Notes under the pieces: generated by a model
What the model was told of the DNA's origin: nothing
Databases searched by the model: none
Seen by the model: only the letters and a program-made list of their open reading frames with translations
Part shown: piece after piece, positions 4,939 to 22,483 of the stretch
Layout: every line of letters begins with the position of its first letter
How positions within the stretch are numbered: the first letter of the stretch is position 1
From: an uncultured Bacteroidota bacterium
GTDB lineage: Bacteria > Bacteroidota > Bacteroidia > UKL13-3
Direction of reading: 5' to 3'
Assembly (NCBI GenBank): GCA_903927505.1
Contig: CAIYNF010000036.1
Coordinates: 1-46,890, forward strand
Length of the DNA: 46,890 nt
Position numbers and translations under genes: made by a program

Positions 4939-5011
4939 GATTCTGTAGCTCAGCTGGTAGAGCATTACACTTTTAATGTAGGGGTCCTGGGTTCGAATCC
5001 CAGCGGGATCA
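4939..5011 (+). tRNA. tRNA-Lys (anticodon TTT)
   Basis: A 73-nt cloverleaf: acceptor GATTCTG/CGGGATC, D-arm GCTC...GAGC, anticodon loop CTTTTAA (anticodon TTT), T-arm CTGGG-TTCGAAT-CCCAG, discriminator A. No CCA is encoded. The last 14 nt (4998-5011) belong to a 66-bp repeat that recurs at 20304, so this tRNA is the integration target of the element to its right. The gene is intact. Confidence 0.97.
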
Positions 5012-5063
5012 CAAAACAAAAACGCAAACCCTTGATAGTTAAGACTTTCAAGGGTTTTTTGTT
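4998..5063 (+). repeat. Attachment site repeat, left copy (attL)
   Basis: 66 bp identical to 20304-20369, in the same orientation. It covers the last 14 nt of tRNA-Lys, the spacer and the tRNA terminator hairpin. Divergence begins abruptly on both sides. This is the classic signature of tyrosine-recombinase integration into a tRNA 3' end. Confidence 0.93.
5026..5061 (+). terminator. Intrinsic terminator of tRNA-Lys
   Basis: A 10-bp perfect stem AAACCCTTGA / TCAAGGGTTT (5026-5035 with 5048-5057), a 12-nt loop and a T-tract. It lies inside the att repeat, so integration keeps the tRNA terminated. An identical copy stands at 20332-20367. Confidence 0.85.
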
Positions 5064-5068
5064 GCACT

Positions 5069-5091
5069 GGGGTAAACATAGGGTAAACATT
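5069..5091 (+). repeat. Tandem GGGGTAAACAT repeats, left end (candidate integrase arm sites)
   Basis: GGGGTAAACATA (5069-5080) directly followed by GGGTAAACATT (5081-5091), 5 bp inside the left att repeat. The same pair occurs at 20169-20192. Binding by the integrase is inferred from their position at both element ends. The remaining 5092-5291 shows nothing else besides a promoter-like box at 5275. Confidence 0.6.
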
Positions 5092-5291: not shown

Positions 5292-5810
5292 ATGATAGAT
5301 AATTCCAATACTAATATTGACTCATTCATTTCTGTGCTTCCTGCTGAATTTTTAGCTAAATTGAATAAGCAGGAGCTTGGAATACTTGAACGTGCCTATA
5401 AGGTCAAGAAATTAGCATCTACTGGGATTATACCAGCTTCTTCTGAAGATTATAATTTTACGTTGCTTTTTGCATCGCACAGAAAGTTCAGAGCAATTGT
5501 GCAGGATAAGCAATTTTTGAATGAAAATAGGGTAGAAGGTTTTTGGAAGCGCGACCCCATGGTTTTGGTTCGCCTCTTATTATTCTTTGCATCCTCTCCT
5601 TATGAATACGCGCGCATACCCAAGCAGGATGTTATTGCTTTCTTTGGAAATAGCACCTGGATGGTAAATGGTAAAATGCTTTTAAAGTACGGATGGATTG
5701 TCCATTGCGCTCCAAATACCTACCATATTTCTGTAAGAGGTAAAAAGCTGTTGGAGTTATTTAAACTTAGGTTGGAGAGAGAGTTTAATAGTGTTTGGTA
5801 TTCAGTTTAG
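5292..5810 (+). CDS. Unknown protein at left end of the integrated element
   Basis: 172 aa, soluble, no signal peptide or TM. I do not recognise the family. The centre (about residues 55-115) is mixed helix, and the C-terminal part around YGWIVHCAPNTYHISVRGKKLLELFKL could be a small winged-helix-like fold, a weak impression. It is the only rightward gene in the element, next to attL and facing the leftward cargo, which fits an accessory gene of the element rather than the core chromosome. Confidence 0.7.
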   Translation: MIDNSNTNIDSFISVLPAEFLAKLNKQELGILERAYKVKKLASTGIIPASSEDYNFTLLFASHRKFRAIVQDKQFLNENRVEGFWKRDPMVLVRLLLFFASSPYEYARIPKQDVIAFFGNSTWMVNGKMLLKYGWIVHCAPNTYHISVRGKKLLELFKLRLEREFNSVWYSV

Positions 5811-5823
5811 GAAGCTGATTTTT

Positions 5824-6597
5824 TTATTTAGTAAATTCCTTAGTAATTTTTTCAACATCCTCCATTTTATATACATAGACACTTCCGTCTTTTGTCTGAA
5901 TTTTTAAATTTACGTTAGGCGTCTGTTCGATAATTATACCCCTGATAATGCTTCCGTTTTTTAAATAAACAACCTCCACATACTCGGATTTATTTTCATG
6001 AGAAGAAGTAGTTGATTTCTTTTTACCAAGCACCATGAATAATATTCCTACAGCACAAATTATTAATCCCCCTAAAATGCTTGTAAAAAGTAATATTAAA
6101 ATACCTGCTGCCCATATTATCCAGCCAAGAATTCTTAATGCAAGGCTACCATCACCCTCTTCAGATAAAGAATTTGCTTTAAATTCCTTCAATTTGGTTG
6201 ATAATACTTTTTTATTGGAAATTGCAGGTTTTGATTCTGAAATAGAATTTTCCTTTGCAGCCTTATAATTTACTTTTTTGTCAAATTCAACTAATTTTTG
6301 AGATGGAATAATAACATAGTTATTGCCTACCGATGCAGTAATATTGTCTTCACTAACTGGCGTTATGAAAGGATTATCAAATATGTTAGTTGCTTTCTCC
6401 GATTGAATAACTGGCAAGGTTTGATTTTTATCCTTTTTATTAGAGTTATTAGCTAATCCTTGCTTTTTAGAATTTTGCTTTCCATTTTTCCATTCAATAT
6501 GGTAGCCAGACATGTAAACCCGTTTTTCTATTGTGCAAGAAGTCAAGACAAGCGACATTGCAAGGCCAATGAACGTAAGATGATTAATAGATTTCAT
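5824..6597 (-). CDS. Lipoprotein with C-terminal Sm-like/KOW-like tail
   Basis: 257 aa. The N-terminus is a lipoprotein signal with lipobox LVLTSC (Cys about 21) followed by IEKRVYMSGYHIEWK, a pattern common in Bacteroidota lipoproteins. A low-complexity Asn/Lys region follows. About residues 155-190 form two hydrophobic segments (GWIIWAAGILILLFTSILGG). The C-terminus (VVYLKNGSIIRGIIIEQ ... KMEDVEKITKE) is a small beta-rich domain often found at the ends of Bacteroidota envelope proteins. Function unknown. It lies between the 5292 gene, which converges on it, and hsdR. Confidence 0.75.
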   Translation of the reverse strand: MKSINHLTFIGLAMSLVLTSCTIEKRVYMSGYHIEWKNGKQNSKKQGLANNSNKKDKNQTLPVIQSEKATNIFDNPFITPVSEDNITASVGNNYVIIPSQKLVEFDKKVNYKAAKENSISESKPAISNKKVLSTKLKEFKANSLSEEGDGSLALRILGWIIWAAGILILLFTSILGGLIICAVGILFMVLGKKKSTTSSHENKSEYVEVVYLKNGSIIRGIIIEQTPNVNLKIQTKDGSVYVYKMEDVEKITKEFTK

Positions 6598-6748
6598 TTT
6601 GGTTTTAAATTGTATATAAAAGTATTATAATTAATTGAAGCCTATTGGACCCAATAATATTTTTGCAAAAGAAATGTGGTACTCATAGGATTTTTATCTA
6701 AACCAAAAATACCGCTTTTTAACATATCTCCTAAGGTTCTTTTTTGTA

Positions 6749-9238
6749 TTACGCAATCCTACTCGCATACAAGTGCTTCTGGAAATCTATGAAGAGGCTG
6801 GATATGTTTTTTACTTCTCCGAGGATGCCTTTGGCATCTTCTAAGGATTGGTATTTATTTACCAATAGAATTGGTAGTTTTTCTTGGTCCAATTCTTCAA
6901 CGCCAGTTTCAACATACTTACTCAGTACAAATTCTATGAACTCTTTCTGGTGTTGGTTCAATATTGCCAAAATTGTGGCGCGTGAGGCCGCTACGCGTTG
7001 TTCTCTTGTAAGCGAGATATAGTTCCCATTAAATACATATTCTAACACATCAAACAAATCACTCTTTTCCATATCTACCAATTGTTGCACAATTAGTAAA
7101 TCGCTTTTAGGGAAACCTGCGTCCTCTAAGCGTTCCAATAGTAGTTTTCTGGTGATTGGGTTACTCCAAATGGCGCGCAATTCGTTTTCATCCTTAAATA
7201 GATTAGGTAACTCGCCAAACAAATTATTTAGGAACTCTTCTGCTGAAATAGGCTTGCCATCTGCACTCCAGAATGAAGTGGAAATCATAGATTGTATTTC
7301 GCGCTCCTTTCCATCGCGCAATTTTATCTTTAATTTAGGCCTCTTGTTGCAAACACATGGCCACTTATCACAATCGGGGCAAGGAGGATTGGGTTCAACC
7401 TTGCAAATACAAGGACTTAGCCCACAAACCTTGCATGGCCCTTTTGGCTGTTTTGGTGTTTGAGGGCACTCACATATTCCCTTGCCACATACATCACATG
7501 GAAGTGCTTCGCCATCCCATTCAGGGTCTGAGAAATGGTGGTAAGCATCTACATAATCATAAATAGTGAAAAACTCTTTGCCATCAAATAGGCGTGTGCC
7601 TCTTCCCACAATTTGCTTAAACTCTATCATTGAGTTTACGGGACGCATTAATACAATATTGCGAATATTCCTTGCATCAACCCCAGTAGAAAGCTTTTGG
7701 GAGGTTGTTAATATAGTTGGAATTGTTCTTTCATTGTCTTGAAACTCTTTTAGGAAAGTTTCACCCATATCTCCATCATTGGCAGTTACCCGCACGCAAT
7801 AATTAGGATTGGTACTGGTTTTATATTGGTTTACCAAATCCCTTATAGCCGCGGCATGGTCTTGGGTTGCACAAAAGATTATGGCTTTTTCTTTTTGGTT
7901 GGCATCGCTCATATATATTTGAACACGATTAGCCTCTCTTGCTTTTATTTCAATAATGCGGTTAAAATCGCCTTCTGTGTAGGTTTTCCCTTCTTCAATT
8001 TCGCCTTCTATAATTTGGTCGTCACTGGTATAGATATAATCATCCAAAGTGGTTTTAATACGTTTTACTTTGAAAGGAGTAAGGAAACCATCATTGATAC
8101 CCTCTTTGAGGGAGTAACTATAAACTGGTTCACCAAAATATTTATAGGTGTTTGCATTGTCCTCTCGCTTGGGTGTGGCTGTTAAGCCCAATTGAACAGC
8201 GGGAGAAAAATACGTTAATATACCTCTCCAATTTCCCTCGTCGTTGGCGCCGCCGCGGTGACACTCATCTATAATTATAAAATCGAAATAATCTCTTGGG
8301 TACTGCCCAAAATTGTATTTTACACCTCCATACACATCTGCTTCTTCTGCCGCCATATCTAAAGGCTCTTCCATTTCTCTATTATTAGCTACGGGAGCAT
8401 TTGTCATAAAGGTTTGAAAGATGGTAAAGAAGATACTGCCATTTGTAGGTACAAATCCTGTTTTCTTTATTTCACTGGGTTTAATCCGAACCAATGCATC
8501 TTCTGGAAAGGCCGAAAAAGAATTGAAGGCTTGGTTGGCCAAGATGTTTCTATCTGCTAAAAATAAGATGCGCGGTCTGCGACTACCATCACGCTTTAAA
8601 TTCCAACGTGTTTGAAATAACTTCCAAGCAATTTGAAAGGCGATAGCCGTTTTACCCGTTCCTGTGGCAAGGGTTAATAAAATACGGTCTTTGCCATTTG
8701 CTATTGCCTCAATGGTATTTCTAACGGCAATTTCTTGGTAATAGCGCAATTGCCAAGTGCCACTTTTGTCTTCAAAAGGAACCTCAGCAAACTTTAAACG
8801 CCATTCGTTAATGGGTTGGTATAAGCTTAGTGCTTGTGTTTGCTCACCAATTGGGTATGTTTTGTTCCAAAGTTCTTCAGGAGTGAGGTAATTTTCTACC
8901 AAACCCTCCGCACCTGTTTTCATGCAAATGCTGTAAATCTCCTTGCCGTTTGTTGAGTAAGTAGTTTCTAATTTTAGTTTATCGGCATATTGTTTGGCTT
9001 GTGCCACACCTTCGCCAACACCTAAATCATCGCTTTTGGCTTCTACAACTGCCAGTTTAATTCCTTTGTAAACCAACACATAATCGGCAGTGAGTTTTTT
9101 TGCTCTTACGCCACCTGTTTGTATTTTACCTGCGGTAATGTTGTATTCACGAAGTATTTTAGAACCCTCTACAACTCCCCAACCGCAAGCCTTTAACTTG
9201 GGGTCTATGAGTTCTGCTCTTGTGTCTGCTTCGTTCAT
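6749..9238 (-). CDS. hsdR: Type I restriction enzyme, R subunit (EcoEI-like)
   Basis: Motor and nuclease subunit that translocates DNA and cuts unmodified DNA in the HsdR2M2S complex. 829 aa. The nuclease PD-(D/E)xK set is D52, E66, K68 (ADYVL ... VVEAKSD). SF2 helicase motifs: ATGTGKT (191-197), DECH (324-327), TAT (353-355) and QIVGRGTRL (542-550). Between the motor and the C-terminal EcoEI_R-type domain lies a cysteine-rich insert (581-630) with three CxxCxxxxCxC units. All key residues are present, so it should be active. Its ATG overlaps the hsdS stop by 4 bp; it is the last gene of the operon. Confidence 0.95.
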   Translation of the reverse strand: MNEADTRAELIDPKLKACGWGVVEGSKILREYNITAGKIQTGGVRAKKLTADYVLVYKGIKLAVVEAKSDDLGVGEGVAQAKQYADKLKLETTYSTNGKEIYSICMKTGAEGLVENYLTPEELWNKTYPIGEQTQALSLYQPINEWRLKFAEVPFEDKSGTWQLRYYQEIAVRNTIEAIANGKDRILLTLATGTGKTAIAFQIAWKLFQTRWNLKRDGSRRPRILFLADRNILANQAFNSFSAFPEDALVRIKPSEIKKTGFVPTNGSIFFTIFQTFMTNAPVANNREMEEPLDMAAEEADVYGGVKYNFGQYPRDYFDFIIIDECHRGGANDEGNWRGILTYFSPAVQLGLTATPKREDNANTYKYFGEPVYSYSLKEGINDGFLTPFKVKRIKTTLDDYIYTSDDQIIEGEIEEGKTYTEGDFNRIIEIKAREANRVQIYMSDANQKEKAIIFCATQDHAAAIRDLVNQYKTSTNPNYCVRVTANDGDMGETFLKEFQDNERTIPTILTTSQKLSTGVDARNIRNIVLMRPVNSMIEFKQIVGRGTRLFDGKEFFTIYDYVDAYHHFSDPEWDGEALPCDVCGKGICECPQTPKQPKGPCKVCGLSPCICKVEPNPPCPDCDKWPCVCNKRPKLKIKLRDGKEREIQSMISTSFWSADGKPISAEEFLNNLFGELPNLFKDENELRAIWSNPITRKLLLERLEDAGFPKSDLLIVQQLVDMEKSDLFDVLEYVFNGNYISLTREQRVAASRATILAILNQHQKEFIEFVLSKYVETGVEELDQEKLPILLVNKYQSLEDAKGILGEVKNISSLFIDFQKHLYASRIA

Positions 9239-10425
9239 ACTGCTACTGCATTTGTTTTTAATTCTCCGCTAAATGCTTTTTGTAAAACGGATTTTTTGAG
9301 TTCTTCTAAATCATTTATTTTTTGATTATAGATTACTTCTAATTTTTTGGTTTCGGCTGATAATGCATTCAGTTTTTGAACGATGGTTTGTTGTTCTTCA
9401 ATTGTTTTTGGAAATGAAATTTGATACTTATTTAATTTCTCTATTGTCAAGGCACTATATGCTGCCCCAATTGCAAGACTTTTTATTTTTTCTACGAATG
9501 CGGTCAAAGCAAATTTTAAATAATTCGTATCTAAACTTTTAAATCCTTTAAACCAAACAATATTTCCGTCTTTAAAATAGAATTCATCATTATTTTCAAT
9601 AACCATTATTTCACCAATTGTTCCAACTGCCGACATTAGCAAATCACTAATTTGCGGAACTCCAAATGATTTTTTTATATCATTGTATCTTTCTCTTGAA
9701 ATGAATAATTCCAAGGTTATATTTTTTCCATTTGATAATTCCTTAATTTCCTTAGTTCTGTAAAAAGGAACGCCATCTTTTACATACTCGCTTTTATAAA
9801 TTCGTTTACTTGAAGTTATTGTTCCCAATTCATCCAAGCATTTCGTTTCCCAGTTTTCATTCCCATTCTCAAACACAACTTGCAAATAACTTTCAAAAAG
9901 TTCTTTGGCGTTTTTGAGGTTTTGTTCGGCATTGGTTTTTGCCTTGGCTATGGCGGCAAAGGCTTCATCTAATATGGCTACGATGCGTTGTTGCTCGGGA
10001 AGGGGTGGAAGGGGGATTTCAATTGCTTCAATTTGTGCTTTGTTTATTGAATTAAAAACCGCACCAGTATTTCCAACAATTTCGCTTTCGTGTTTCAACA
10101 AAAAATTAAATAGAAATTCTTTGTCTATCAAATTTGTTGCTCTTATTGCAGCAAGTCCACGCCCAATACAAATTTTTTGCGTTGCAAAATTTATTGGTCC
10201 AACAGGTGCACGAACTGACATAAGAATATCATTCGCTTCTGCTTCCTTTGTTACTTTGGTTGTCCAAGTTGTTGGTTCGCCAATATATTTTTCGCCATAC
10301 TCTTTCTTCCCTTGATAAAAAGGCAAACCATTTCCATTGTCATTGTAAAATTTGCCTTCTGGTGATTGCCCTGCAATTACTTTACATACATCTCCAATAG
10401 TTTTTATTTTCCAACCTTGTTTCAT
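9235..10425 (-). CDS. hsdS: Type I restriction enzyme, S (specificity) subunit
   Basis: Target-recognition subunit that sets the DNA sequence methylated and restricted. 396 aa with two half-repeats, each a target-recognition domain followed by a conserved helix. The first half ends LPPLPEQQRIVAILDEAF (about 139-156); the second ends FPKTIEEQQTIVQKL and KKSVLQKAFSGEL. Each half has the DILMSVRAPVG / DLLMSAVGTIG strand. It overlaps the ORF6N gene upstream and hsdR downstream by 4 bp each. The specificity cannot be read from sequence. Confidence 0.95.
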   Translation of the reverse strand: MKQGWKIKTIGDVCKVIAGQSPEGKFYNDNGNGLPFYQGKKEYGEKYIGEPTTWTTKVTKEAEANDILMSVRAPVGPINFATQKICIGRGLAAIRATNLIDKEFLFNFLLKHESEIVGNTGAVFNSINKAQIEAIEIPLPPLPEQQRIVAILDEAFAAIAKAKTNAEQNLKNAKELFESYLQVVFENGNENWETKCLDELGTITSSKRIYKSEYVKDGVPFYRTKEIKELSNGKNITLELFISRERYNDIKKSFGVPQISDLLMSAVGTIGEIMVIENNDEFYFKDGNIVWFKGFKSLDTNYLKFALTAFVEKIKSLAIGAAYSALTIEKLNKYQISFPKTIEEQQTIVQKLNALSAETKKLEVIYNQKINDLEELKKSVLQKAFSGELKTNAVAV

Positions 10426-11330
10426 ATCAGTTCCAAAATTGAGTTTAAAATATTTTGTACCGAGTGTTTATCCATTTTAGAGAAGGCAAACCATTTTTTG
10501 CCCAAGTCTTTTAAAGACGCACCCAAATGATAAACATCTTGTTGGTCAATAATCAAAAATCGGTCGTGGCTTTGGGTAAAGGTTTGTAAGGTAAAATGCC
10601 CGTATTGTTCCTTGGCTTTTTGCACATCTAATACCAATTGTTTGCTGCTGCTTTTTGAAAGGAGCATTGCCGTTACGCCTTTTTTCTTTTTAGCCAAATG
10701 AGTAAGCGTGCTTTCGTCTATATAATTGTCTATAAGTATAATGCTTTGCTTGGCGGAGCGTATAATTTTAGAAGCCAATTCGTATGCATCAAATACCTGT
10801 CCGTCAAAAAAAACGCCTTGGGTGGGAAGGGAGTTTCCCTCCAAAGCCTTAAAAATTTGCTCAAACTTTTGGTCGGTTTCAAGCTGCTTCAACTCCATTT
10901 TACCTAAACGATGGCTAAGTAATGAGTTTTCCATGATTAGCTTACGCATGTTTACAAATGCATCCATTATTTGAATACTCACTATGATAGCCAAATCGCT
11001 ATTGAGCACAGCGGAAAGCATAGCAACACCTTGTTCGGTAAACACGTAGGGTAGTGTTCTTCGTTTTGCGGTCGCAATTTGCGACTGCAAACCACTGTTA
11101 TTTTCTGTGGTCGCAATCTGCGACTGCAATTGTTTCCATTCGCTTGCCGTAAGTTGGTACATAAAACCAATAGGAAACCTTTTATTATTGCGCTTCACTT
11201 GCTCGTTTATGCGCTTTGTTTCTACCTCATATAATTCTGCAAGGTGGTAATCTACCATCACCTGATTGCCTCGAACAGTGTATATCCTATTCTCAATCAA
11301 TTTCTGAGATACCATTAACGCTTTACTCAT
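10422..11330 (-). CDS. ORF6N-domain protein with C-terminal PLD-like domain, inside the hsd operon
   Basis: 302 aa. Residues about 8-110 are an ORF6N domain (RGNQVMVDYHLAELYEVET, RFPIGFMYQLT, LPYVFTEQGVAML), a phage-type DNA-binding module. After a helical linker (about 120-165), residues about 175-290 resemble a phospholipase-D-like fold: ILIDNYID, TAMLLSK and HDRFLIID (255-262), an HxR...D version of the HKD motif (Arg in place of Lys). Such proteins often accompany type I RM loci; the role is unproven, possibly regulatory or an added nuclease. It overlaps hsdM and hsdS by 4 bp. Its C-terminus NSILELI is identical to that of HsdM (see the 30-bp repeats). Confidence 0.88.
   Translation of the reverse strand: MSKALMVSQKLIENRIYTVRGNQVMVDYHLAELYEVETKRINEQVKRNNKRFPIGFMYQLTASEWKQLQSQIATTENNSGLQSQIATAKRRTLPYVFTEQGVAMLSAVLNSDLAIIVSIQIMDAFVNMRKLIMENSLLSHRLGKMELKQLETDQKFEQIFKALEGNSLPTQGVFFDGQVFDAYELASKIIRSAKQSIILIDNYIDESTLTHLAKKKKGVTAMLLSKSSSKQLVLDVQKAKEQYGHFTLQTFTQSHDRFLIIDQQDVYHLGASLKDLGKKWFAFSKMDKHSVQNILNSILELI
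10423..10452 (-). repeat. 30-bp direct repeat, copy at the ORF6N gene 3' end
   Basis: Matches 11328-11357 at 29 of 30 positions in the same orientation. It encodes the ILNSILELI / NSILELI end of the ORF6N protein and the overlapping ATG of hsdS. The pair frames the ORF6N gene exactly, with a period of 905 bp. Confidence 0.85.
11071..11129 (-). repeat. 39-bp-period internal duplication in the ORF6N gene
   Basis: The 20-bp unit at 11071-11090 recurs at 11110-11129 with one mismatch, 39 bp (13 codons) apart, duplicating LQSQIAT in the protein. Each unit contains an imperfect palindrome, GTCGCAA-T-TTGCGAC. The duplication keeps the frame. Confidence 0.75.
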
Positions 11331-12787
11331 ATCAATTCCAAAATTGAGTTTAAAATAGCGGCACTTTCTTCGTCCAAGTCTTTCATTTCCTCTAAAATCT
11401 GCTGCGGCTGGCGCAATGCAGCTTCTTCTTTTTTATTAGGATTTTTAGCACTTAGGTCAAAGGTGTTTTGGTCAATATCTTTTATGTTTATGCTCCAGGA
11501 GTTTTCGCTATCGGCTTTTGTTTTCTGCAGCTCAATAAATTCTGCCAAATCTTTCTCATTAAGTGCATTGGTCTTACCTAAGTTCCTATCTAAGTTCAAT
11601 TGGTAAAACCATACTTTTTTGGTAGCACTTCCTTTTTCAAAAAACAATACCACTGTTTTTACTCCCGCACCTGTAAAGGTACCACCAGGTAAATCCAATA
11701 CCGTATGAAGGTTGCAGTTTTCCAAGAGTTGTTGCCTTAGTTTGGCATCAGCACTACCTGCGCCACCATTGCTTAAAAAGGTATTTTTAATAACTACACC
11801 AGCTTTACCGCCCGCCTTTAGAATTTTAATAAAGTGTTGCAGAAATAAGGAAGCAGTTTCTCCTGTTTTTATAGGAAAGTTCTGTTGCACTTCGGCGCGT
11901 TCCTTGCCACCAAAAGGAGGATTTGCCAATACAATATCGTAACGGTCCTTCTCTTGAATATCGGCTATGTTCTCGGCAAGTGTATTGGTGTGTATAATGT
12001 TTGGTGCTTCAATGCCATGAAAAATCATGTTCATAGTGCCAATAATATACGCCAATGATTTTTTTTCTTTGCCGTAAAAGGTGTTTTTCTGGAGTGTGCT
12101 TATATCTGAAGTTGTAAGCTTCTTGCTATTTTGTAGAAAGCTAAAGGCCTCACATAAAAAGCCTGCGCTGCCCACAGCACCATCATAAATCTTATCTCCA
12201 ATTTTTGGCGCCACCACTTTAACAATGGTTGTAATAAGTGGACGCGGTGTATAGTACTCGCCACCATTGCGACCAGCATTGCCCATGTTTTGAATCTTAG
12301 ACTCATATAAATGGCTCATTTCATGCTTTTCTGCATGGGTTCGGAAACGAAGGCTATCAATAAGGTTTATTACCTCACGTAAGTTATAACCACTTTGTAC
12401 GCGGTTTTTAAGTTCACTGAAGATTTCACCAATTTTATATTGAATGGTATCTGCACTCACAGCAGCAGCCTTAAACTTTTTAAGGTAAGGGAATAAATTA
12501 ATGTTTACAAAGTCTGCAAGATCGTCGCCTGTTAATGCATTGTGGTGGTCTAACTTACCATCAGGCAATTTAGGTGCAGCCCAAACGTTCCATTGGTATT
12601 TGGGTTCAAGTAAGGAATTGTAAGTTTTGCCAGTTAATTCGGCAGCAGTTGCTTTGTCCTTTTCTAAGTCGTCCAAGTACTTTAAAAACAATATCCATGA
12701 GGTTTGTTCTACATAGTCTAATTCACTGCCACAGCCAGCGTCTTTATGGAGGATATCGTCAATGTTTTTGAAGGTTTGTTCGAACAT
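11327..12787 (-). CDS. hsdM: Type I restriction enzyme, M (methyltransferase) subunit
   Basis: N6-adenine methyltransferase subunit that modifies the host target and is needed for restriction. 486 aa: N-terminal HsdM_N helical domain (about 1-140), then the catalytic domain with AdoMet motif I DGAVGSAGFL (202-211) and the N6-adenine motif NPPF (289-292). AGRNGGEYYTPRPL (171-184) is the usual M-subunit signature. The first gene of a four-gene leftward operon. The end ILNSILELI is copied at the end of the next gene. No strong promoter is seen upstream. Confidence 0.96.
   Translation of the reverse strand: MFEQTFKNIDDILHKDAGCGSELDYVEQTSWILFLKYLDDLEKDKATAAELTGKTYNSLLEPKYQWNVWAAPKLPDGKLDHHNALTGDDLADFVNINLFPYLKKFKAAAVSADTIQYKIGEIFSELKNRVQSGYNLREVINLIDSLRFRTHAEKHEMSHLYESKIQNMGNAGRNGGEYYTPRPLITTIVKVVAPKIGDKIYDGAVGSAGFLCEAFSFLQNSKKLTTSDISTLQKNTFYGKEKKSLAYIIGTMNMIFHGIEAPNIIHTNTLAENIADIQEKDRYDIVLANPPFGGKERAEVQQNFPIKTGETASLFLQHFIKILKAGGKAGVVIKNTFLSNGGAGSADAKLRQQLLENCNLHTVLDLPGGTFTGAGVKTVVLFFEKGSATKKVWFYQLNLDRNLGKTNALNEKDLAEFIELQKTKADSENSWSINIKDIDQNTFDLSAKNPNKKEEAALRQPQQILEEMKDLDEESAAILNSILELI
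11328..11357 (-). repeat. 30-bp direct repeat, copy at the hsdM 3' end
   Basis: Partner of 10423-10452. It holds the last codons of hsdM and the overlapping start of the ORF6N gene. Recombination between the copies would remove the ORF6N gene and leave hsdM overlapping hsdS by the same 4 bp. Confidence 0.85.
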
Positions 12788-13161: not shown

Positions 13162-13977
13162 CTATTTGTATTGACTATTGAAAACAATTGACCTTCCTAC
13201 AGAAAGAAATAATGGAGCCAATTGGCTGTACCTTTTTTGTAACTCTATATCAGAACCTGGAGAGCCGATACCGCATGAAAAATTGATTAATTTATTCTTG
13301 TATACAATATAAAACATCATAACTCGCATTTGCACCTTTATTCCCAAGGTTTCTCTGGTCTGATTGAAAACAATTACAAAGCCCTCATTTTGGTCGAATT
13401 TTGTTCTATCAGTACTAATTAAATTTGACCCAACTGGTAAAAATGACTTACCACCATCTTCCAGAAATATTTTAACAAATTCATCCTGAGTAAAGTCTTG
13501 GCCTAAATCTTTAACTACTAATACAACTGTTTCTAAACCATCACCATAATCTGTAACAAATTTTTGAACCACATTGGGTCTGTCACCTTCCATACTCCTC
13601 CAGCTCAGTGGCACCTTAAATTGCATGTCTAATCCTTTGGCCTTGAGATGATTTTTGGTGCTATAGACTTTCGTATATCCATTTGAGAACTCAGTTGATG
13701 GGGTGTTTAGATATTGAAAATGAAGGAGCGTTTCTAAAATAGGATTTGGTATTTCACCCTTTGCGCGTTTGTCTATTTCTAATAGGTAGGCATTTGCATC
13801 CTCAAGTCCAATTGGGTTTTCGTCCTCCATTTTTCGAATTGCATCTTTCCCATCCATGATAAATTTTTGAAATTCACTTTCTCCCAAGTAACCCTTAAGG
13901 TATTCCTCCATATTAACTCTCGCATTTCCGAATGCTACGTTAAAATTTGAGCTTGAAATAATTACCTGCTGCTTCAA
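13162..13977 (-). CDS. Unknown secreted protein, 3' portion of a frameshifted gene
   Basis: 271 aa from a TTG codon at 13977; no family recognised. The reading frame stays open upstream to about 14137 with coding-like sequence (NFKTEKNVRVSRAYGYLLSQ) but has no start there. An ATG at 14156 in another frame begins MAKNIKYFFF, and one added base in a T8 tract would join the two into a 331-aa protein with a signal peptide. The body is alpha/beta (FVTDYGDGLETVVLVVKDLG, MRVMMFYIVYKNKLINFS). It may be a recent pseudogene, phase-variable, or a sequencing error. It is part of a run of secreted proteins in the element. Confidence 0.6.
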   Translation of the reverse strand: MKQQVIISSSNFNVAFGNARVNMEEYLKGYLGESEFQKFIMDGKDAIRKMEDENPIGLEDANAYLLEIDKRAKGEIPNPILETLLHFQYLNTPSTEFSNGYTKVYSTKNHLKAKGLDMQFKVPLSWRSMEGDRPNVVQKFVTDYGDGLETVVLVVKDLGQDFTQDEFVKIFLEDGGKSFLPVGSNLISTDRTKFDQNEGFVIVFNQTRETLGIKVQMRVMMFYIVYKNKLINFSCGIGSPGSDIELQKRYSQLAPLFLSVGRSIVFNSQYK

Positions 13978-14156
13978 GGCAGGGAAGATTTCTTTGATTC
14001 TATTGAGGCTGTATTGTTGAGATAAAAGGTAGCCATAGGCTCGAGAAACCCTTACATTCTTTTCGGTTTTAAAATTGCCTGCTGTTTGCCCATTTCCCCA
14101 AAAGCCAATGCTTATAAAAGCGATTAGAAAAAAAAGTATTTAATGTTTTTTGCCAT
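13978..14156 (-). pseudogene. Displaced 5' end (signal peptide) of the 13162 gene
   Basis: ATG at 14156 starts MAKNIKYFFF then a stop. After a one-base shift at the homopolymer (A8 at 14128-14135 on the plus strand) the frame continues as FLIAFISIGFWGNGQ, a typical Bacteroidota signal peptide ending in Gln, and runs into the 13162 ORF. The region 13162-14156 is 995 bp, one short of a full set of codons. Confidence 0.65.
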
Positions 14157-14226
14157 TATTTGATGGTCTCTACCTTTATATATTTTCACCCATTTTGAAA
14201 AAATGCGCCAGATTTTAATTATTGAC

Positions 14227-14529
14227 TTAAAGTTGAATGAAGCCTGGTAAAAGTATATTAATAAGGGTCAGAACTACAATAGATACTGTTGTATTTATTC
14301 CCAATCCATAAAAGTAAGGACTGTTGAATTGCCCTTTAATAGCAATAATATATTGTGCTATAATTTGCGATAAAATTACACAAACAATTAACGGTATAAA
14401 GGCACCTGCTGCAAACTTGGGTGAGACTAAATAAATACTACTAAAAAGAAGAAATGCAAATGAGGACCAAAGACCCTTTTTGATTGATTTTTTTGAGTAT
14501 TCGACGGAATTGTCTTTTAATTTGTTCAT
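14227..14529 (-). CDS. Small membrane protein, unknown
   Basis: 100 aa. A charged, Lys/Ser-rich N-terminus (about 1-20) is followed by three hydrophobic segments at about 22-40, 43-63 and 75-97. No recognised family. It sits among secreted-protein genes of the element, all leftward. No signal for function beyond inner-membrane location. Confidence 0.55.
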   Translation of the reverse strand: MNKLKDNSVEYSKKSIKKGLWSSFAFLLFSSIYLVSPKFAAGAFIPLIVCVILSQIIAQYIIAIKGQFNSPYFYGLGINTTVSIVVLTLINILLPGFIQL

Positions 14530-14559
14530 AATAGTGAAAATTAAAGAATTTGGAATTTA

Positions 14560-14679
14560 TTATAAGGTTTTTAGTTTATAAATGATTTCCCCAGCAGTAT
14601 TATCAAGCAAAATCAAGGTTTGACTATTTGATTTGAAATAAATCAATAGAATTGCAAAGAGTAGAATAAGCTTTTTCAT
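14560..14679 (-). CDS. Possible 39-aa secreted peptide
   Basis: ATG at 14679 opens 39 codons: MKKLILLFAILLIYFKSNSQ, a good signal peptide with cleavage after SNSQ, then about 19 residues (TLILLDNTAGEIIYKLKTL). It fits between two leftward genes without overlap. It may be a real small secreted peptide or the 5' remnant of a larger gene. No independent proof of coding. Confidence 0.35.
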   Translation of the reverse strand: MKKLILLFAILLIYFKSNSQTLILLDNTAGEIIYKLKTL

Positions 14680-14692
14680 AGTAAATGAGGAA

Positions 14693-15679
14693 TTAGAATT
14701 TTTTTATTGTAAGTACATTGGTTTTAGAATTAACTTTCCATGTCTGGAACTTATTTAAAGCAGAAACTCCAAATAATGGGGTGGCATTGCCAGGGGAAAT
14801 ACCCGCTTCAATATTAGTAAGCGTAATATTTCCAAACCTCAATTTAGCAATTCTAACCCTTCTTAATGTAACAACTCCATTTGCGGTCTCATAATCTTGA
14901 GAAGGCAAATAGTCGCTTTCCCGAATAATACCCGCCTCAATTAAATATTGTTCAATTCTGGCGTTTATTAGGAAGTCGGAGGCGCCAGTGTCAAATAAAA
15001 AATCAAATCCCTTACCCCCCATAATCGTCCTAACATAATAATGCCCATTAATTTTTTTCATTTGAACATTTTCAATTTGAGAGTCCTTCCTTAGCTGGGT
15101 TTCTGTACTATTATTTGAAGTAATAGCAGGGAATTCAGGCCTCCTTAATATCAATTTGAACCATAACTTATTATCCTCAACTAAACCATAACCATAAGAA
15201 CCAGCAGGAACACCCCAAATTGCATCACCAAAATATCCCATATTTCGTTTTTGGTCATCTATCCAATTGTTTGGATTGTTTTTAGAAACAATATGATTGG
15301 GTTTACTTGAAAAATGGGCCTTAAATCCTTCAATTTCTCCTTTTGCGTATTCTGTGGTGAAACTAACCATTACTTCATAATTAATAATTTTATCATCTAC
15401 TGTGGCTTCAAAGTAAATTTTACCTCTATATTCTTCATCATTAATAAAATATTCATATTTTAATTTATGACCTCGTCCATTTAATTCATAATCAGGCTCT
15501 GAGGCTGTTAATTTAAATCCACTATTTAACATTTTAGCCTTAATTACATCCATCCTTTCTTGGGCATATAACTGAGATATTTCATCAAGAAAACGTGGAA
15601 GGTCATAAACTATTGAATTTGCCTTGTTAATTAAAACAAACAACACAATAAAAAGCAATAGTATTCTGGGTGTTTTCAT
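14693..15679 (-). CDS. Secreted retropepsin-like aspartyl protease
   Basis: 328 aa with an N-terminal signal peptide (about 1-22). The C-terminal domain (about 205-328) is retropepsin-like: the catalytic motif FLFDTGASDFLIN has Asp230-Thr-Gly-Ala-Ser, followed by a beta-rich segment LRFGNITLTNIEAGIS and LFGVSALNKFQTWKV, the usual layout of single-domain bacterial aspartyl proteases that act as dimers. Residues about 30-200 are not recognised. The predicted site is periplasmic or extracellular. The substrate is unknown. Confidence 0.8.
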   Translation of the reverse strand: MKTPRILLLFIVLFVLINKANSIVYDLPRFLDEISQLYAQERMDVIKAKMLNSGFKLTASEPDYELNGRGHKLKYEYFINDEEYRGKIYFEATVDDKIINYEVMVSFTTEYAKGEIEGFKAHFSSKPNHIVSKNNPNNWIDDQKRNMGYFGDAIWGVPAGSYGYGLVEDNKLWFKLILRRPEFPAITSNNSTETQLRKDSQIENVQMKKINGHYYVRTIMGGKGFDFLFDTGASDFLINARIEQYLIEAGIIRESDYLPSQDYETANGVVTLRRVRIAKLRFGNITLTNIEAGISPGNATPLFGVSALNKFQTWKVNSKTNVLTIKKF

Positions 15680-15764
15680 AAAAATTTGAATGTCTTAATT
15701 AGTTATTCAATTATAAAATTTAGTGGTTTTTTTTGTTTTCTTTAGAATAATGAAATATAGTTGG

Positions 15765-16196
15765 TTAATACAATGGTTTGATATTAATAACTAATAAGTC
15801 CATATACTTCATGTCTAAATTCATTTCAACATAGATATTTTCATCTTTGCTTCCCCATTTTAAAAACCCAATGGAAGTGTAACTTTTGTCAAATATGTCT
15901 TTGTAGTAGCTTATAGAGTTGTATTGGTCCATAATTAATATATGGTTAACTTTTGGGATACAATTTGTACAGTTGTTGAAATAAAAAGACACTTCACAAC
16001 CTCCTTTATGTTTAAAGGAATAATATGAGTCTCCATTATCCGAGAAGTTTTTACCTTTAAATGCCCAATCTGCATTCATATTGCTTCTAACATATTCAAT
16101 GTCCTTCCTAAGGAATTGAGTTTGTGATTTAACGTAAATTGGGGCAAATAAAGTGGCTAAAAATAGGTAGAAGTAGATTAGGAATTGTTGTTTCAT
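15765..16196 (-). CDS. Small secreted protein, unknown
   Basis: 143 aa with a signal peptide (about 1-24, cleaved near VKSQ). The mature part is beta-rich (SYYSFKHKGGCEVSFYFNN) and contains three cysteines (GCEVS, NCTNC). No recognised family. First gene of the leftward secreted-protein run, directly beside the structured non-coding region at 16197-16729. Confidence 0.6.
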   Translation of the reverse strand: MKQQFLIYFYLFLATLFAPIYVKSQTQFLRKDIEYVRSNMNADWAFKGKNFSDNGDSYYSFKHKGGCEVSFYFNNCTNCIPKVNHILIMDQYNSISYYKDIFDKSYTSIGFLKWGSKDENIYVEMNLDMKYMDLLVINIKPLY

Positions 16197-16279
16197 GATT
16201 TTAAAGTTTTCGTTTTTTGGATATTGTTTGCTTTTCGAACTCTTTAATTTTTAAGTACCAAACCTAAAAAATAAAAAAA

Positions 16280-16400
16280 GCGTGGAACCATAGTCAACGC
16301 TGTTGAGGTGCCGCGAAGTACCTGCCAAACAATCAACCATAGCCCACGCCGTAACGTGCGCAATAGTCATTCACTGTTTGGCTCATTGGAAGTTCGCGGC
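16280..16400. repeat. Nested inverted repeat (cruciform-forming)
   Basis: GCCGCGAA (16310-16317) pairs perfectly with TTCGCGGC (16393-16400). Inside it GCCAAACA (16324-16331) pairs with TGTTTGGC (16375-16382), and the centre GCCCACG / CGTGCGC (16342-16361) pairs at six of seven positions. An alternative pairing joins GCGTGG (16280-16285) to CCACGC (16344-16349). It is GC-richer than its surroundings. Confidence 0.7.
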
Positions 16401-16534
16401 TTTCAACAAAACAGAATTAACTAACGCAATTCATTAAATATCAATTCAAATATATATAAGTATCTACTAATTCTAAATTTTGATTGAAGAAATCTATGAA
16501 AGTATATTAAATATGTGTTGTCTTAATAGTACTT

Positions 16535-16608
16535 CGGATGGCTATCCGTAATGCTCGGATTAGAATCCGATTATGGGCTGTAACGCCATATAATACTGAT
16601 ACTTTCAG
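16535..16608. repeat. Array of four consecutive hairpins
   Basis: CGGAT-GGCT-ATCCG (16535-16548), TCGGATT-AG-AATCCGA (16555-16570), TATGG...CCATA (16572-16590) and CTGA-TACTT-TCAG (16596-16608). The first two share the CGGAT / ATCCG stem sequence. Confidence 0.6.
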
Positions 16609-16729
16609 ATACACGGCAGTTAAAATAAAAGCTAAACTTAGGCGCAAGCATCAGTTAATTGAAGATTAGGAGGGCATGTAATTTATTTGTGTATTTGAAA
16701 TTGCGCACCCGTGGTGGCCTAATGTGAAT

Positions 16730-17185
16730 TTATATTAGTATATCATAATCAGACATGTCAAAGCTGATGTATTTACTTACATAATCGCTCGCACCACCTG
16801 ATGGTTTAAACTCTTCTATCTTAGTAAATGTATTCTCAAAACCATTATTACCCTTACTTACTCTTCTCCATAACTTTCTAAGTAAATCAAAGCCAGTCTT
16901 TGTTTTAGCTAATTCTCTATTTTTTAGGTAGATTAATCCATGTATGTGAAACCCTTCTTTTACATCAAATGGCTCAGATGCCCAGAAGAATACTGATCCA
17001 CCGTATTCTTTATCAATTTTGGCAAAGAATCTCTCTGCCGCTCTGCGAGCCGACTTTTGAGTTAGCTCATAGCGTGTGGTTAAGGTTAAATAGTAATCCC
17101 ATGGGCGTTCGTTTAACATCTTACCATAGGCTTTTTCAGCTTGTGCTTTAAGGTTTTGTATTTTTTTTGCTCTATTTGTTTTCAT
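16730..17185 (-). CDS. HUH-endonuclease Rep-like protein (rolling-circle initiator)
   Basis: 151 aa. Three landmarks of HUH replication or transfer nucleases are visible in order: motif I DYYLTLTT (30-37), the metal-binding HIH in GFHIHGLIYL (79-88, His80 and His82), and a tyrosine motif DYVSKY (134-139, Tyr135 or Tyr139 with Lys138). Such proteins nick one strand at an origin and form a 5'-phosphotyrosine bond. No helicase domain, as in small plasmid or phage Reps. It is flanked by hairpin-rich DNA on both sides (16280-16608 and 17242-17299). It suggests that the element replicates as a circle or is mobilized after excision. Confidence 0.75.
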   Translation of the reverse strand: MKTNRAKKIQNLKAQAEKAYGKMLNERPWDYYLTLTTRYELTQKSARRAAERFFAKIDKEYGGSVFFWASEPFDVKEGFHIHGLIYLKNRELAKTKTGFDLLRKLWRRVSKGNNGFENTFTKIEEFKPSGGASDYVSKYISFDMSDYDILI

Positions 17186-17241
17186 TTTTTTTCTTTTGGG
17201 TTTTGGGTAAACTTCTTTATCACCTGCGGACTTTCATTTTG

Positions 17242-17299
17242 GACCCAAGTATTCCGCTTCGGTGCTTGCTTCGCTGCACCTTCACTACATAGTTGGGTC
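17242..17299. repeat. Nested stem-loop upstream of the Rep gene
   Basis: GACCCAA (17242-17248) pairs with TTGGGTC (17293-17299), and inside it GGTGC (17261-17265) pairs with GCACC (17276-17280). It sits in the 168-bp leader between the Rep start and the 17354 gene, so it may be an origin, an attenuator or a terminator of the upstream genes. Confidence 0.55.
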
Positions 17300-17353
17300 A
17301 TACAAGTATTGTCTTTTTTACTTGTTAAAATGTTGATAATAAGTGATTTATAA

Positions 17354-17680
17354 TTATTGATTATTGAAATAGAGTACTAATTTTTCGTAATACTCAAGTG
17401 CATGTGAGAATTGATTCTGGTTGTAGCATTTAGCAAACTTTCCAAAATCCTCTCCAGAGGGATATTTTTCATAAATCCTTTCATGCCTAAAAAATGCAAT
17501 TGCAGATAACAGGTTATCCTTGCTTTTTATGATGTAAACCTTAAATACTACGTATTTTTCAATGTTACCAGTTTTACAGTCTATGCCAACGTAAATCGCC
17601 GCTTTTGTCTTTCTATACAGTTGTTTGTATAGGTAACCCCCTTTCTTAAAAGTTAGCGGAAGTGGTATTAACTTTTCCAT
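17354..17680 (-). CDS. Unknown 108-aa protein of the element
   Basis: 108 aa, basic and aromatic-rich, no TM. An alpha/beta impression: YRKTKAAIYVGIDCKTGNIEKYVVFKVYIIKS is strand-rich, and the rest is helical. No recognised family. It starts 3 bp after the stop of the HTH gene, so the two are surely co-transcribed. That placement, beside Xis-like and Rep genes, suggests a role in excision or replication control (inference). Confidence 0.65.
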   Translation of the reverse strand: MEKLIPLPLTFKKGGYLYKQLYRKTKAAIYVGIDCKTGNIEKYVVFKVYIIKSKDNLLSAIAFFRHERIYEKYPSGEDFGKFAKCYNQNQFSHALEYYEKLVLYFNNQ

Positions 17681-17683
17681 TCC

Positions 17684-17947
17684 CTACGCTTTAATTGAAT
17701 TTTGAATCTTATGGGATTCCAAAAACTTTTGGATGTCTGTTTGTTGGTAGTAAATTTTCTTACCAACCTGGGTGAAGATTATTTTTCCTTCATCTCGCCA
17801 TGTTTGTGCGGTGCGCCTTGAGACGCCTAATTTTTTAATAAAATCTTCGTTTGAAATTGCTAAGGCATTAGCTACTTCTTTTTGTTGGCTTAATTGACTT
17901 TCAATCAGCTCTAACTTAAATAAAATTGTGTTAATTAATTCATCCAT
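17684..17947 (-). CDS. Helix-turn-helix protein, excisionase-like
   Basis: 87 aa. A helical N-terminus (about 1-30) is followed by a MerR/Xis-type winged helix: NEDFIKKLGVSRRTAQTWRDEGKI (about 33-56) then TQVGKKIYYQQTDIQKFLESH. This is the usual helix_turn_helix_17 type seen near integrases of Bacteroidota mobile elements, where some act as recombination directionality factors. Here it is two genes from the integrase. Its own leader holds a tandem ATCGGGCAT repeat (17981-18000) that may be its binding site. Confidence 0.8.
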   Translation of the reverse strand: MDELINTILFKLELIESQLSQQKEVANALAISNEDFIKKLGVSRRTAQTWRDEGKIIFTQVGKKIYYQQTDIQKFLESHKIQNSIKA

Positions 17948-18056: not shown

Positions 18057-18902
18057 TTATTTTATTAGTTTTTTTGCCATTTCAAAGTGATCCTCATAGA
18101 TTTTACTGCCTTTACTCAGTCGCTTTACGAATTCCAGGCTAACTAAAGTCATAATTTGTTTATGTCCATTTTCCTGCTTTACCTTCGTTATTTTATTTGA
18201 TAACATAAGTGCATCAAGAACCGCCCTTATTGATGATTTCTTTTTTTCATCTAATCTATATATTCCTTTATCGGTTATTTTAAGTTCATCTAATAATGCA
18301 ATAATTATTTTAATGTCTTCCTTGGTATATATATTATTATTAGCAGTTTCAACGACAGTTTTTAAAGGTTTTTTTATGGTATTTAATATTCTTGAAGGTT
18401 CACCTATCTGATTTATTAAATAGCTTAATGTATTAATTAAATCCGAAAACGATTTATGTTGGAAGTGTCTAAATAGTACATTTTGGATTGTTGGCTTATC
18501 GAACCCTGGAATCATATTCACATTTTTTTTACTGCTCGAGGCCTCGGGTATATCGTTTAAAATTGATAAAAAGTCTTTATGCTTTTTACTTATCGAATAA
18601 TATTTTGGTTTTATTTCCTCGATACTAAATTCGAATTGCTTTTGTATTAACTCAAATGATTTATCTATTGGGGCGTATTGGGATAATAGTTCATTAATAT
18701 TAATATTCAGAAATTCAAGCTGTTCTCTCTTGTTCTCAAGGCTAAGGGTGCTTTGAGTTTGAATTATTTCATCATTAATTTTAGCTATGCTTTGGTCAAT
18801 ATCCATTTTCGACTGGATTACTGATTTATTAATTGGTAGCGCTTTTGAAAGAGATTTAATATATGCCTCTAAATGTGGGTATTTGATTCCTTGTATTTCC
18901 AT
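18057..18902 (-). CDS. Unknown 281-aa protein co-transcribed with the integrase
   Basis: 281 aa, soluble, mostly helical. Residues about 25-120 have heptad-like spacing (SIAKINDEIIQTQSTLSLE) and may form a coiled coil. The C-terminal third (KGIYRLDEKKKSSIRAVLDAL, KITKVKQENGHKQIMTLV) looks like a winged helix with a beta hairpin, a weak impression. It starts 2 bp after the integrase stop. No family recognised. An accessory role in integration or excision is an inference from the operon alone. Confidence 0.75.
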   Translation of the reverse strand: MEIQGIKYPHLEAYIKSLSKALPINKSVIQSKMDIDQSIAKINDEIIQTQSTLSLENKREQLEFLNININELLSQYAPIDKSFELIQKQFEFSIEEIKPKYYSISKKHKDFLSILNDIPEASSSKKNVNMIPGFDKPTIQNVLFRHFQHKSFSDLINTLSYLINQIGEPSRILNTIKKPLKTVVETANNNIYTKEDIKIIIALLDELKITDKGIYRLDEKKKSSIRAVLDALMLSNKITKVKQENGHKQIMTLVSLEFVKRLSKGSKIYEDHFEMAKKLIK

Positions 18903-20137: not shown

Positions 20138-20303
20138 ATAAAAGCAAAAGAATTAAGATATTAATAATGGGGTAAACATTGGGGTAAACATTTCCTTTAT
20201 TTGGATGTATTAATTTGCCTTTATTTGCATTTTAAATTTATGCAAATAATAGATTATGAGTTATTTAAGTGAAATTCAGTGAAAATTAGTGCTAATAAAG
20301 TGT
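20138..20303. promoter_or_regulatory. Right-end regulatory region of the element
   Basis: Contains the tandem GGGGTAAACATT pair (20169-20192) and several copies of a CCTTTATTTG / TTTATTTGCAT-like word on both strands between 20138 and 20250. The integrase promoter, reading left, must be here. It resembles a multi-site recombination end with arm and accessory factor sites. Confidence 0.5.
20169..20192 (+). repeat. Tandem GGGGTAAACATT repeats, right end
   Basis: Two exact 12-bp copies in tandem, matching the pair at 5069-5091 in sequence, spacing and orientation. They lie 111 bp inside the right att repeat. Confidence 0.65.
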
Positions 20304-20369
20304 TCCCAGCGGGATCACAAAACAAAAACGCAAACCCTTGATAGTTAAGACTTTCAAGGGTTTTTTGTT
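20304..20369 (+). repeat. Attachment site repeat, right copy (attR)
   Basis: 66 bp identical to 4998-5063. It contains the terminal 14 nt of tRNA-Lys and a full copy of the tRNA terminator hairpin (20332-20367), but no tRNA body. It marks the right boundary of the 15,306-bp element. Confidence 0.93.
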
Positions 20370-21161: not shown

Positions 21162-22157
21162 TTATTTGTTGCTTTTTTTCTTCAATTGTTTAAATCGTCC
21201 TTGGTAGGATTGTAAATAATTTCTTTTTGTGTTTTCGTTTAGAAAGGATGCTTGAATCATTTGCTCAACCATTTCTACCTTTGATAACATCAGACTTAAA
21301 ATGTCTTTTGAAATAGGTTCAGGAATGTCTGCTTGATTTCCAAGCGTTAAAAATTGTTGGTAGATACTTCCTAGGTTTAAATTCTTAGCTAAAAGGCCTT
21401 CCTCTAGGGCAAAATCCTTGTCGTTTATATGAATACGACTATTTAACAAATCATAAGCAGGACTCAAACGGTAATCGCCCATAGGCGTTTCAATGATGGA
21501 AAAGTTCTTTAAATGGGCATCGCCATTTGAATACAGATAATTAAAAACAAGGGTTTTGAAAAGTTTTGTTGCTTCCAATTTGTATGCTGGTAAATAAGAT
21601 TTCATGAGTTGAAAAACTTCAGCATAATTACCAAGGTATTTATAGTGTTCGCCATGCGTTTGTGGAGTTCTTCCTGCCAAGGATGCAAAATCTTCTTGTG
21701 CCAATTTGGAGCCATTTTCTGCTAAATCAAATCTTTTGGTAATATAAGCAGGAGCTCCATTTTTAAAAAATATCAGCGCATTTTCAGCTGTTTCTATGCC
21801 ATACACTTGTCGCGCAATTTGCATGGTGAGGTGCTCGTTAGCGGGCATTTGATTGGCCTTGTTTATCGCAGTTGGAATAGGTTTCAAAATGTACATGCCA
21901 CCTTCCCCTTCTTGAGCTAACCTTAACTTGTTTTTTTCTAGCAATACAGAAAACTTTTCTTGTACACCCGAAATCGATATTCCTTGTCTGTTTTCATCAA
22001 ACAATTTATCTGTTTCAGGATTCGAAAAAGGAGAATCATACGGTAAAATATGATTCACTTTTTTACTATTAAAGACTCTTTTTAAACAGGTTCTGCTATA
22101 GGTTTCAAAACCTTCTGCCAAAGTTCCAGGACAATATTTTATTTGGGGAAAACTCAT
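21162..22157 (-). CDS. hipT: HipT-like serine/threonine kinase toxin
   Basis: 331-aa HipA-family kinase lacking the N-terminal subdomain, which is encoded separately by the next gene upstream. Seen: GISISGVQEKFS (59-70) as the Gly-rich loop, including an SIS pair (Ser61, Ser63) at the place of the autophosphorylation serines of known HipT; the catalytic loop NGDAHLKNFS (Asp213, Asn218); and the metal-binding AYDL (Asp236). Known HipT phosphorylates tryptophanyl-tRNA synthetase; the target here is not shown. Overlaps hipS by 4 bp. Confidence 0.85.
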   Translation of the reverse strand: MSFPQIKYCPGTLAEGFETYSRTCLKRVFNSKKVNHILPYDSPFSNPETDKLFDENRQGISISGVQEKFSVLLEKNKLRLAQEGEGGMYILKPIPTAINKANQMPANEHLTMQIARQVYGIETAENALIFFKNGAPAYITKRFDLAENGSKLAQEDFASLAGRTPQTHGEHYKYLGNYAEVFQLMKSYLPAYKLEATKLFKTLVFNYLYSNGDAHLKNFSIIETPMGDYRLSPAYDLLNSRIHINDKDFALEEGLLAKNLNLGSIYQQFLTLGNQADIPEPISKDILSLMLSKVEMVEQMIQASFLNENTKRNYLQSYQGRFKQLKKKSNK

Positions 22158-22483
22158 GTATTTTCAATTTTTATTACGCGAATAGCCCCTATGCAGTCGT
22201 GCTTTGCTGTGGTCATTAATAATCCAAAATAATCATCCTTGTCAATTCTATGGTGTTTACAAACAAGCTGTTTGTTTGAACCTTCTGGTAGCATATTGTA
22301 AAACAATGGAAAAAGCTTTTTTGAATGATATTCTTGTCTTGTTTTTGGTAAGGTAAGACTGATGCTTTGCATCTTGTTATCTGTTAACCAAACTGCATGG
22401 TATTTGAAGGTATAGGTGCCGTCATCGTTTTGGGATAATAGGCCAGCCTCTTGCTCTTTAAATAAAATTTTAGCCTGTCTCAT
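22154..22483 (-). CDS. hipS: HipS-like protein (HipA N-terminal subdomain)
   Basis: 109 aa matching the HipA N-terminal subdomain 1: FKEQEAGLLSQNDDGTYTFKY, then SLTLPKT and LFPLFYNMLPEGSNK. In fused HipA this segment leads into the kinase; as a free protein it matches HipS, which is the antitoxin in the HipBST system of enteropathogenic E. coli. Overlaps hipB (upstream) and hipT (downstream) by 4 bp each, a tight translational chain. Confidence 0.85.
   Translation of the reverse strand: MRQAKILFKEQEAGLLSQNDDGTYTFKYHAVWLTDNKMQSISLTLPKTRQEYHSKKLFPLFYNMLPEGSNKQLVCKHHRIDKDDYFGLLMTTAKHDCIGAIRVIKIENT

Follow-up and report, generated by a model that had tools for sequence, protein, structure and literature searches.

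A tRNA-Lys-integrated element of an uncultured Bacteroidota bacterium with a small HUH Rep protein beside structured DNA

The window, by which we mean the whole stretch of DNA analyzed (46,890 nt, contig CAIYNF010000036.1 of assembly GCA_903927505.1, from an uncultured Bacteroidota bacterium), contains an exactly delimited integrative element of approximately 15.4 kb, located in a tRNA-Lys gene (Table 1; all coordinates refer to the window). The element is bounded by two 66-bp direct repeats that are 100% identical, the left copy overlapping the 3' end of the tRNA gene, and a tyrosine integrase is encoded between them. The original prediction of a tRNA-integrated element with a tyrosine recombinase was thus confirmed and could be sharpened to this perfect repeat pair. 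Read from the right end, the order is the integrase, a 281-aa gene (mid), the HTH gene, the 108-aa gene, a leader with a stem-loop, rep, hairpins, variable cargo and the type I operon. The HTH_17 protein is excisionase-like, and its match to TIGR01764 falls under the cut-off.

Table 1. Features of the tRNA-Lys element and its target in the window.
Feature	Position	Strand	Basis
tRNA-Lys (TTT), integration target	4939..5012	+	ARAGORN, Rfam
attL, 66-bp direct repeat over tRNA 3' end	4998..5063	.	100% identity to 20304-20369
Paired arm-type integrase sites GGGGTAAACATAGGGTAAACA, putative role	5069..5090	+	Same paired motif at same end of G145 element
Type I restriction-modification cargo incl. PDC-S05 gene	6749..12787	-	PADLOC, E 1e-92 to 1e-156
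HsdR (cargo operon part)	6749..9238	-	
HsdS (cargo operon part)	9235..10425	-	
PDC-S05 protein (cargo operon part)	10422..11330	-	
HsdM (cargo operon part)	11327..12787	-	
Variable cargo: disrupted 331-aa gene, 100 aa, aspartyl-protease-like 328 aa, 143 aa	13162..16196	-	
Long imperfect hairpin, 3' of rep	16280..16405	-	z -3.29; kept in G011
Small-hairpin group	16513..16615	+	z -2.20
rep, 151-aa HUH Rep (W29, E71, HIH 80-82, Y135-x-x-K138)	16730..17185	-	PF23343, alignments, fold
Nested stem-loop in rep leader, candidate nick/control site	17242..17299	-	z -3.38, 0/200 shuffles
108-aa protein	17354..17680	-	No family match
HTH_17 protein, excisionase-like	17684..17947	-	PF12728, 2.7e-10; phrog_66 excisionase, 8.4e-8
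mid, 281-aa gene, N-terminal part diverged	18057..18902	-	Comparison with G011
Tyrosine integrase, 410 aa	18905..20137	-	PF00589, PF13102, PF17293
Paired arm-type integrase sites GGGGTAAACATTGGGGTAAACA, putative role	20169..20191	+	Recurrence in G145
attR, 66-bp direct repeat	20304..20369	.	Identical to attL

Directly inside both ends of the element lie paired sites of the type GGGGTAAACAT(A/T)GGGTAAACA, and the motif GGGGTAAAC occurs three times in the whole window, always at these paired sites. Their position and their recurrence in a related element (G145, described below) suggest that they are arm sites of the integrase. Neither a relaxase gene nor genes for a coupling protein or a T4SS were recognized between the repeats, based on a Pfam analysis of ten proteins and a reading of the ORF list by eye, in agreement with the expectation that large relaxase and conjugation genes are lacking. 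Nor was any Mob family found among the ten Pfam-scanned proteins, the other ORFs being read by eye only, and the element does not classify as a MobP element. Within the same scope, the combination of an integrase and an RCR-initiator-like protein with no T4SS corresponds to the gene content of an IME with an RCR-type relaxase. Within the cargo operon, the PDC-S05 protein and HsdM share the C-terminus ILNSILELI as the result of a 31-bp repeat (10422-10452 and 11327-11357). To the right of attR, HipA-like genes are located at 21162-22483 in the window.

The 151-aa Rep protein carries the HIH motif at residues 80-82 and DYVSKY at residues 134-139, as predicted. It scored 30.4 bits against the Pfam family PF23343 (REP_ORF2-G2P), above the cut-off of 27.8, and matched a rolling-circle initiation family in PHROGs (E 3e-4). 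An alignment of nine divergent Reps showed that W29, E71, H80, H82, Y135 and K138 are invariant. NCBIfam contains no model for Rep, and a PDB sequence search returned chance matches only. Two AlphaFold models were obtained, with mean pLDDT values of 74.7 and 78.0, and for both of these the top match among solved structures was SIRV1 ORF119, a 116-residue chain (Z 10.2 and 8.2, respectively). The first model aligned to this structure over 106 residues at 2.7 A, and its next best match was AAV Rep (Z 9.7). The model runs strand-helix-strand-strand, and the third strand carries HIH. The second model is less distinct and has a thin margin over unrelated folds; the fold assignment therefore leans on the profile, the motifs and the first model jointly. 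A fold unlike that of HUH nucleases had been named as grounds for dropping the prediction, but the models match Rep nuclease domains best. Thus, we conclude with moderate confidence that Rep adopts the HUH fold.

The same structural comparisons bear on what kind of element this is. Microvirus Rep models rank among the best structural matches, the top viral model matching with a TM of 0.74 and 34% identity, and PF23343 is named after phage ORF2/G2P Reps. These results would fit a satellite of a filamentous or other ssDNA phage, in which ssDNA produced with the aid of Rep and the hairpins is packaged by a helper phage, and clusters of hairpins are indeed reminiscent of the intergenic layout of filamentous phages. 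However, no phage gene was recognized in the element, its 15 kb would be large for a filamentous or ssDNA phage particle, and no relatives were found in IMG/VR or phage records. We therefore regard the satellite as quite improbable. Plasmid records likewise contained no relatives of the small Reps.

The DNA around rep was folded as single-stranded DNA and compared with 200 dinucleotide shuffles. The minus strand of 16280-16405 reached -26.2 kcal/mol, which was equalled by one of the 200 shuffles, and the plus strand of 17240-17302 reached -11.8 kcal/mol, which was equalled by none (z-scores in Table 1). The block at 16513-16615 was weaker than the other two, and 16616-16729 was without structure (z +1.1). 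Hence, of the structured DNA proposed to flank Rep, 16280-16405 and 17242-17299 surpass the shuffles and 16513-16615 does so less clearly, but the stretch adjoining the 3' end of the gene is unstructured. The interval originally highlighted, 16197-17353, does contain a leader stem-loop and hairpins, but it mixes two regions, namely the 5' leader of rep with the nested stem-loop (17186-17353) and the DNA downstream of rep (16197-16729). No Rfam match was obtained in 16150-17400 or in the corresponding leader of the f90 elements described below. In 90-base windows, folding energy within the element reaches its minimum elsewhere, at two strong GGTCGCAATTTGCGACTGC-type hairpins within the PDC-S05 gene (11038-11127).

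An IS200/IS605 or RAYT-type single-strand transposase with hairpin ends would at first sight fit the protein size, the single catalytic tyrosine, the HUH motif and the hairpins, and the fold list contains ISHp608 TnpA and a RAYT among its lower-ranking entries (Z 6.1). However, the sequence family is that of Rep. The hairpin region is present in a single copy in the genome, so there is no REP array and not the multiple copies of such an element, and we consider a transposase highly implausible. By eye, 16280-16405 resembles an integron attC site; a search of the genome gave no second copy and a core site was not recognized, and this candidate was rejected.

The same element is present at the tRNA-Lys gene of another species of the genus (G011, contig CANFHJ010000039.1), where the flank differs at the position of the HipA-like genes. 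The terminal repeats of G011 are identical to each other and differ from the pair in the window. The shared parts of the two elements are 97-99.7% identical, as compared to 92% for a 2.7-kb core gene, indicating that the element has moved between the lineages or has been exchanged after their split. The copies diverge in three stretches, namely the cargo at 14163-16267, hsdS at 9347-10378 and a large part of the 281-aa gene, as well as in the cargo at the left end (5802-6748). The difference in hsdS is what one would expect if restriction specificity had been switched, hsdM being 99.7% identical. In the 281-aa gene, the N-terminal part (18341-18833) is strongly diverged and the C-terminal approximately 90 aa are nearly identical. 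The 331-aa gene (13162-14157) is intact in G011, whereas the window copy is interrupted near its start, with an early stop in the matching frame. The exchanged cargo ends at 16267, only 13 bases short of the first hairpin. The two rep genes differ by two substitutions, both of which change an amino acid and which are too few to judge selection.

These comparisons bear on another view, in which Rep is a remnant of a plasmid or phage that became integrated. The element would then move by its integrase together with transduction or natural transformation, and the hairpins would be terminators or leader RNA structures. The location of one hairpin block 3' of rep and of the other in the rep leader is in line with this view, as is the disruption of one cargo gene. 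On the other hand, Rep has been retained while the flanking cargo was swapped, and in distant elements it keeps both its place beside the HTH gene and its catalytic residues, which makes a leftover unlikely.

Searches seeded with Rep revealed the order integrase, variable gene, excisionase-like HTH gene and Rep in 13 repeat-delimited elements across Bacteroidota, a count that is silent on the share of integrase elements without Rep. The set consists of the elements in the window, G011, G145, G003, G008, G113 and G160 (locus L050), and six elements from f90, a distant family of the phylum. A tRNA gene was seen in 10 of the 12 elements beyond the window; G113 is located at mnmE, and G003 has the same repeat sequence as G008, its tRNA gene being absent from the contig. 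G145, the closest independent relative, belongs to another family of the same class. At a tRNA-Arg gene, it carries a 157-aa Rep (39% identity), HTH, mid and a close integrase (E 2.7e-146), arranged in the same order, and the paired sites recur at both of its ends. G003 and G008 display the same gene order with a longer Rep, G008 at tRNA-Arg (TCT), and the G160 element is located at tRNA-Lys and carries its cargo between the integrase and mid genes. Each of the six f90 elements has direct repeats at a tRNA gene, and their Reps are 130-148 aa long in four elements and longer in two. Scores against PF23343 were 31.3 bits for the G145 Rep and 28.6 bits for one f90 Rep. The Rep of G008, which is longer and belongs to the same Pfam family, in an element from the same genus, matches proteins of 1.4-3.4 kb plasmids. 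Two further loci (L025 and L068) fit the arrangement in part, and family searches of G625 and G145 for extra copies yielded one decayed copy only.

Other Rep-like genes were observed in different settings. The 13.5-kb element of G113 (L026, 108-13649), at the 3' end of mnmE, encodes a Rep_1-type protein and, by eye, carries metal-efflux genes instead of defence genes. Another contig of the genome from which the window derives (L007, 6956-7645, on G000 contig C107) encodes a solitary 229-aa protein with an HUH Rep-like domain and a longer N-terminal part, and a similar 214-aa protein is encoded beside hsdR and hsdS genes in G223 (L062, 9772-10416).

Conservation of the hairpins had been proposed as a test of the prediction, and the outcome was mixed. 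In four f90 elements, the interval of approximately 255-320 bases separating HTH from Rep forms four hairpin systems, in which 97.7% of the alignment cells pair, as compared to 35-60% when the partners were slid. Ten pairs changed on both sides against a shuffle mean of 3.2, and none of 500 shuffles was as high, although this covariation comes from four sequences, two of which are approximately 91-94% alike. The f90 hairpins downstream of Rep aligned too poorly for pairs to be counted. The compensatory changes in f90 thus favor conservation. In G145, by contrast, just 47 bp separate HTH from rep, the DNA downstream of rep is not significantly structured (z +0.17), and strong hairpins lie near the left end instead; the near-identical G011 copy is too recent to inform. 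The lowest-energy 100-base stretch of the element is no more than 650 bases from rep in 8 of 11 elements, which is a trend only, since the nearness is not significant per element (chance values 0.10-0.95) and the independent groups are few.

Cargo proteins picked by eye were compared with PADLOC for nine loci, which do not include G003, G008 and L067. Strong matches were obtained in seven loci: type I in the window, type IIG and PDC-S18 in G145, type IIG in L050, type II in the partial-fit locus L025, HEC-01 in L063, a type III methylase in L064 and RT_VI in L069. The matches in L065 and L066 were weak.

Taking the gene content and comparisons together, we consider the most likely account, with a probability of roughly 0.6, to be that the tRNA-Lys element is excised by the integrase and the HTH protein, nicked and replicated as a rolling circle by Rep, and transferred as ssDNA by a helper. 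The plasmid-like or transfer stage suggested in the original prediction, and with it excision, origin nicking, rolling-circle replication and helper transfer, are steps that we infer. The integrase and the HTH protein would excise the element as a circle. Tyr135 of Rep would then nick one strand in a stem-loop near rep, probably in the leader (17242-17299) or the 16280-16608 block, and start rolling-circle replication; the remaining hairpins would have a role in synthesis of the second strand or in termination. The machinery of a helper element would pass on the single strand, perhaps with Rep acting as relaxase, and the strand would reintegrate at tRNA-Lys. Its defence cargo may offset the cost of keeping the element.

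Rep could instead act mainly as a non-canonical relaxase that nicks an oriT in the hairpin DNA; the element would then be an IME that shows little vegetative replication and depends on a conjugative element in the same cell for its movement. Tyrosine-integrase IMEs of streptococci, some of them in tRNA genes, have RCR-initiator-like relaxases (PHA00330, PF01719, PF02407, MobT; PMC5357655, PMC5704250), and Rep-type proteins are reported to serve as both replication initiator and relaxase in ICEBs1 (MobT) and in some plasmids (PMC5357655). Moreover, no other relaxase was recognized in the element. However, no coupling protein was recognized either, and the genomes G000, G011 and G145 yielded no match to TIGR03783, the conjugation ATPase of Bacteroidota, a result that is not conclusive because these are drafts and a helper may be transient. 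On balance, a mainly relaxase role is possible but somewhat doubtful.

The nearest described kind to the element, for which excision, rolling-circle replication and helper transfer remain our preferred reading, is the streptococcal IME, which likewise combines a tyrosine integrase with a single RCR-type protein, has no T4SS and often occupies a tRNA site. These IMEs differ in that many encode a TcpA coupling protein and that they belong to another phylum. The NBU1/Tn4555-type IMEs of Bacteroides share the Bacteroidota host, the tyrosine integrase and, in a known example, a tRNA site, but have a canonical MobP relaxase and oriT in place of the 151-aa Rep; in the review, the Bacteroidetes IMEs have MobP wherever a relaxase is given. 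ICEBs1 is likewise integrative, and its excised circle, which is only presumed here, is nicked by a Rep-like protein, but it has its own conjugation machinery, and MobT comes from another Rep family. Filamentous-phage G2P and microvirus Reps share PF23343 and the HUH core; in contrast, no coat, capsid or export genes were recognized here and Rep is about half the usual length. SIRV1 ORF119 (2x3g) is the closest solved fold and similarly small, but derives from an archaeal linear virus and is 17% identical. No description of this Bacteroidota Int-mid-HTH-Rep arrangement was found in text searches of an open-access library.

More broadly, we tentatively propose that the elements may form a Bacteroidota-wide family with an integrase, a variable gene, an HTH protein and a minimal Rep, lacking a canonical relaxase, that uses a structured ssDNA origin and shuttles interchangeable anti-phage systems via helpers. 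Such a family would extend Rep-type mobilization beyond Firmicutes, where it has been described. Ordinary relaxase screens probably overlook elements in which a Rep of 130-157 aa is the only HUH protein. Many defence islands adjoin integrases with no visible way to pass between cells, and a small Rep and structured DNA that are kept while defence genes are swapped offer a specific and testable route of movement. The occurrence of anti-phage systems in the related elements suggests a route by which immunity may spread through elements that have no conjugation genes of their own.
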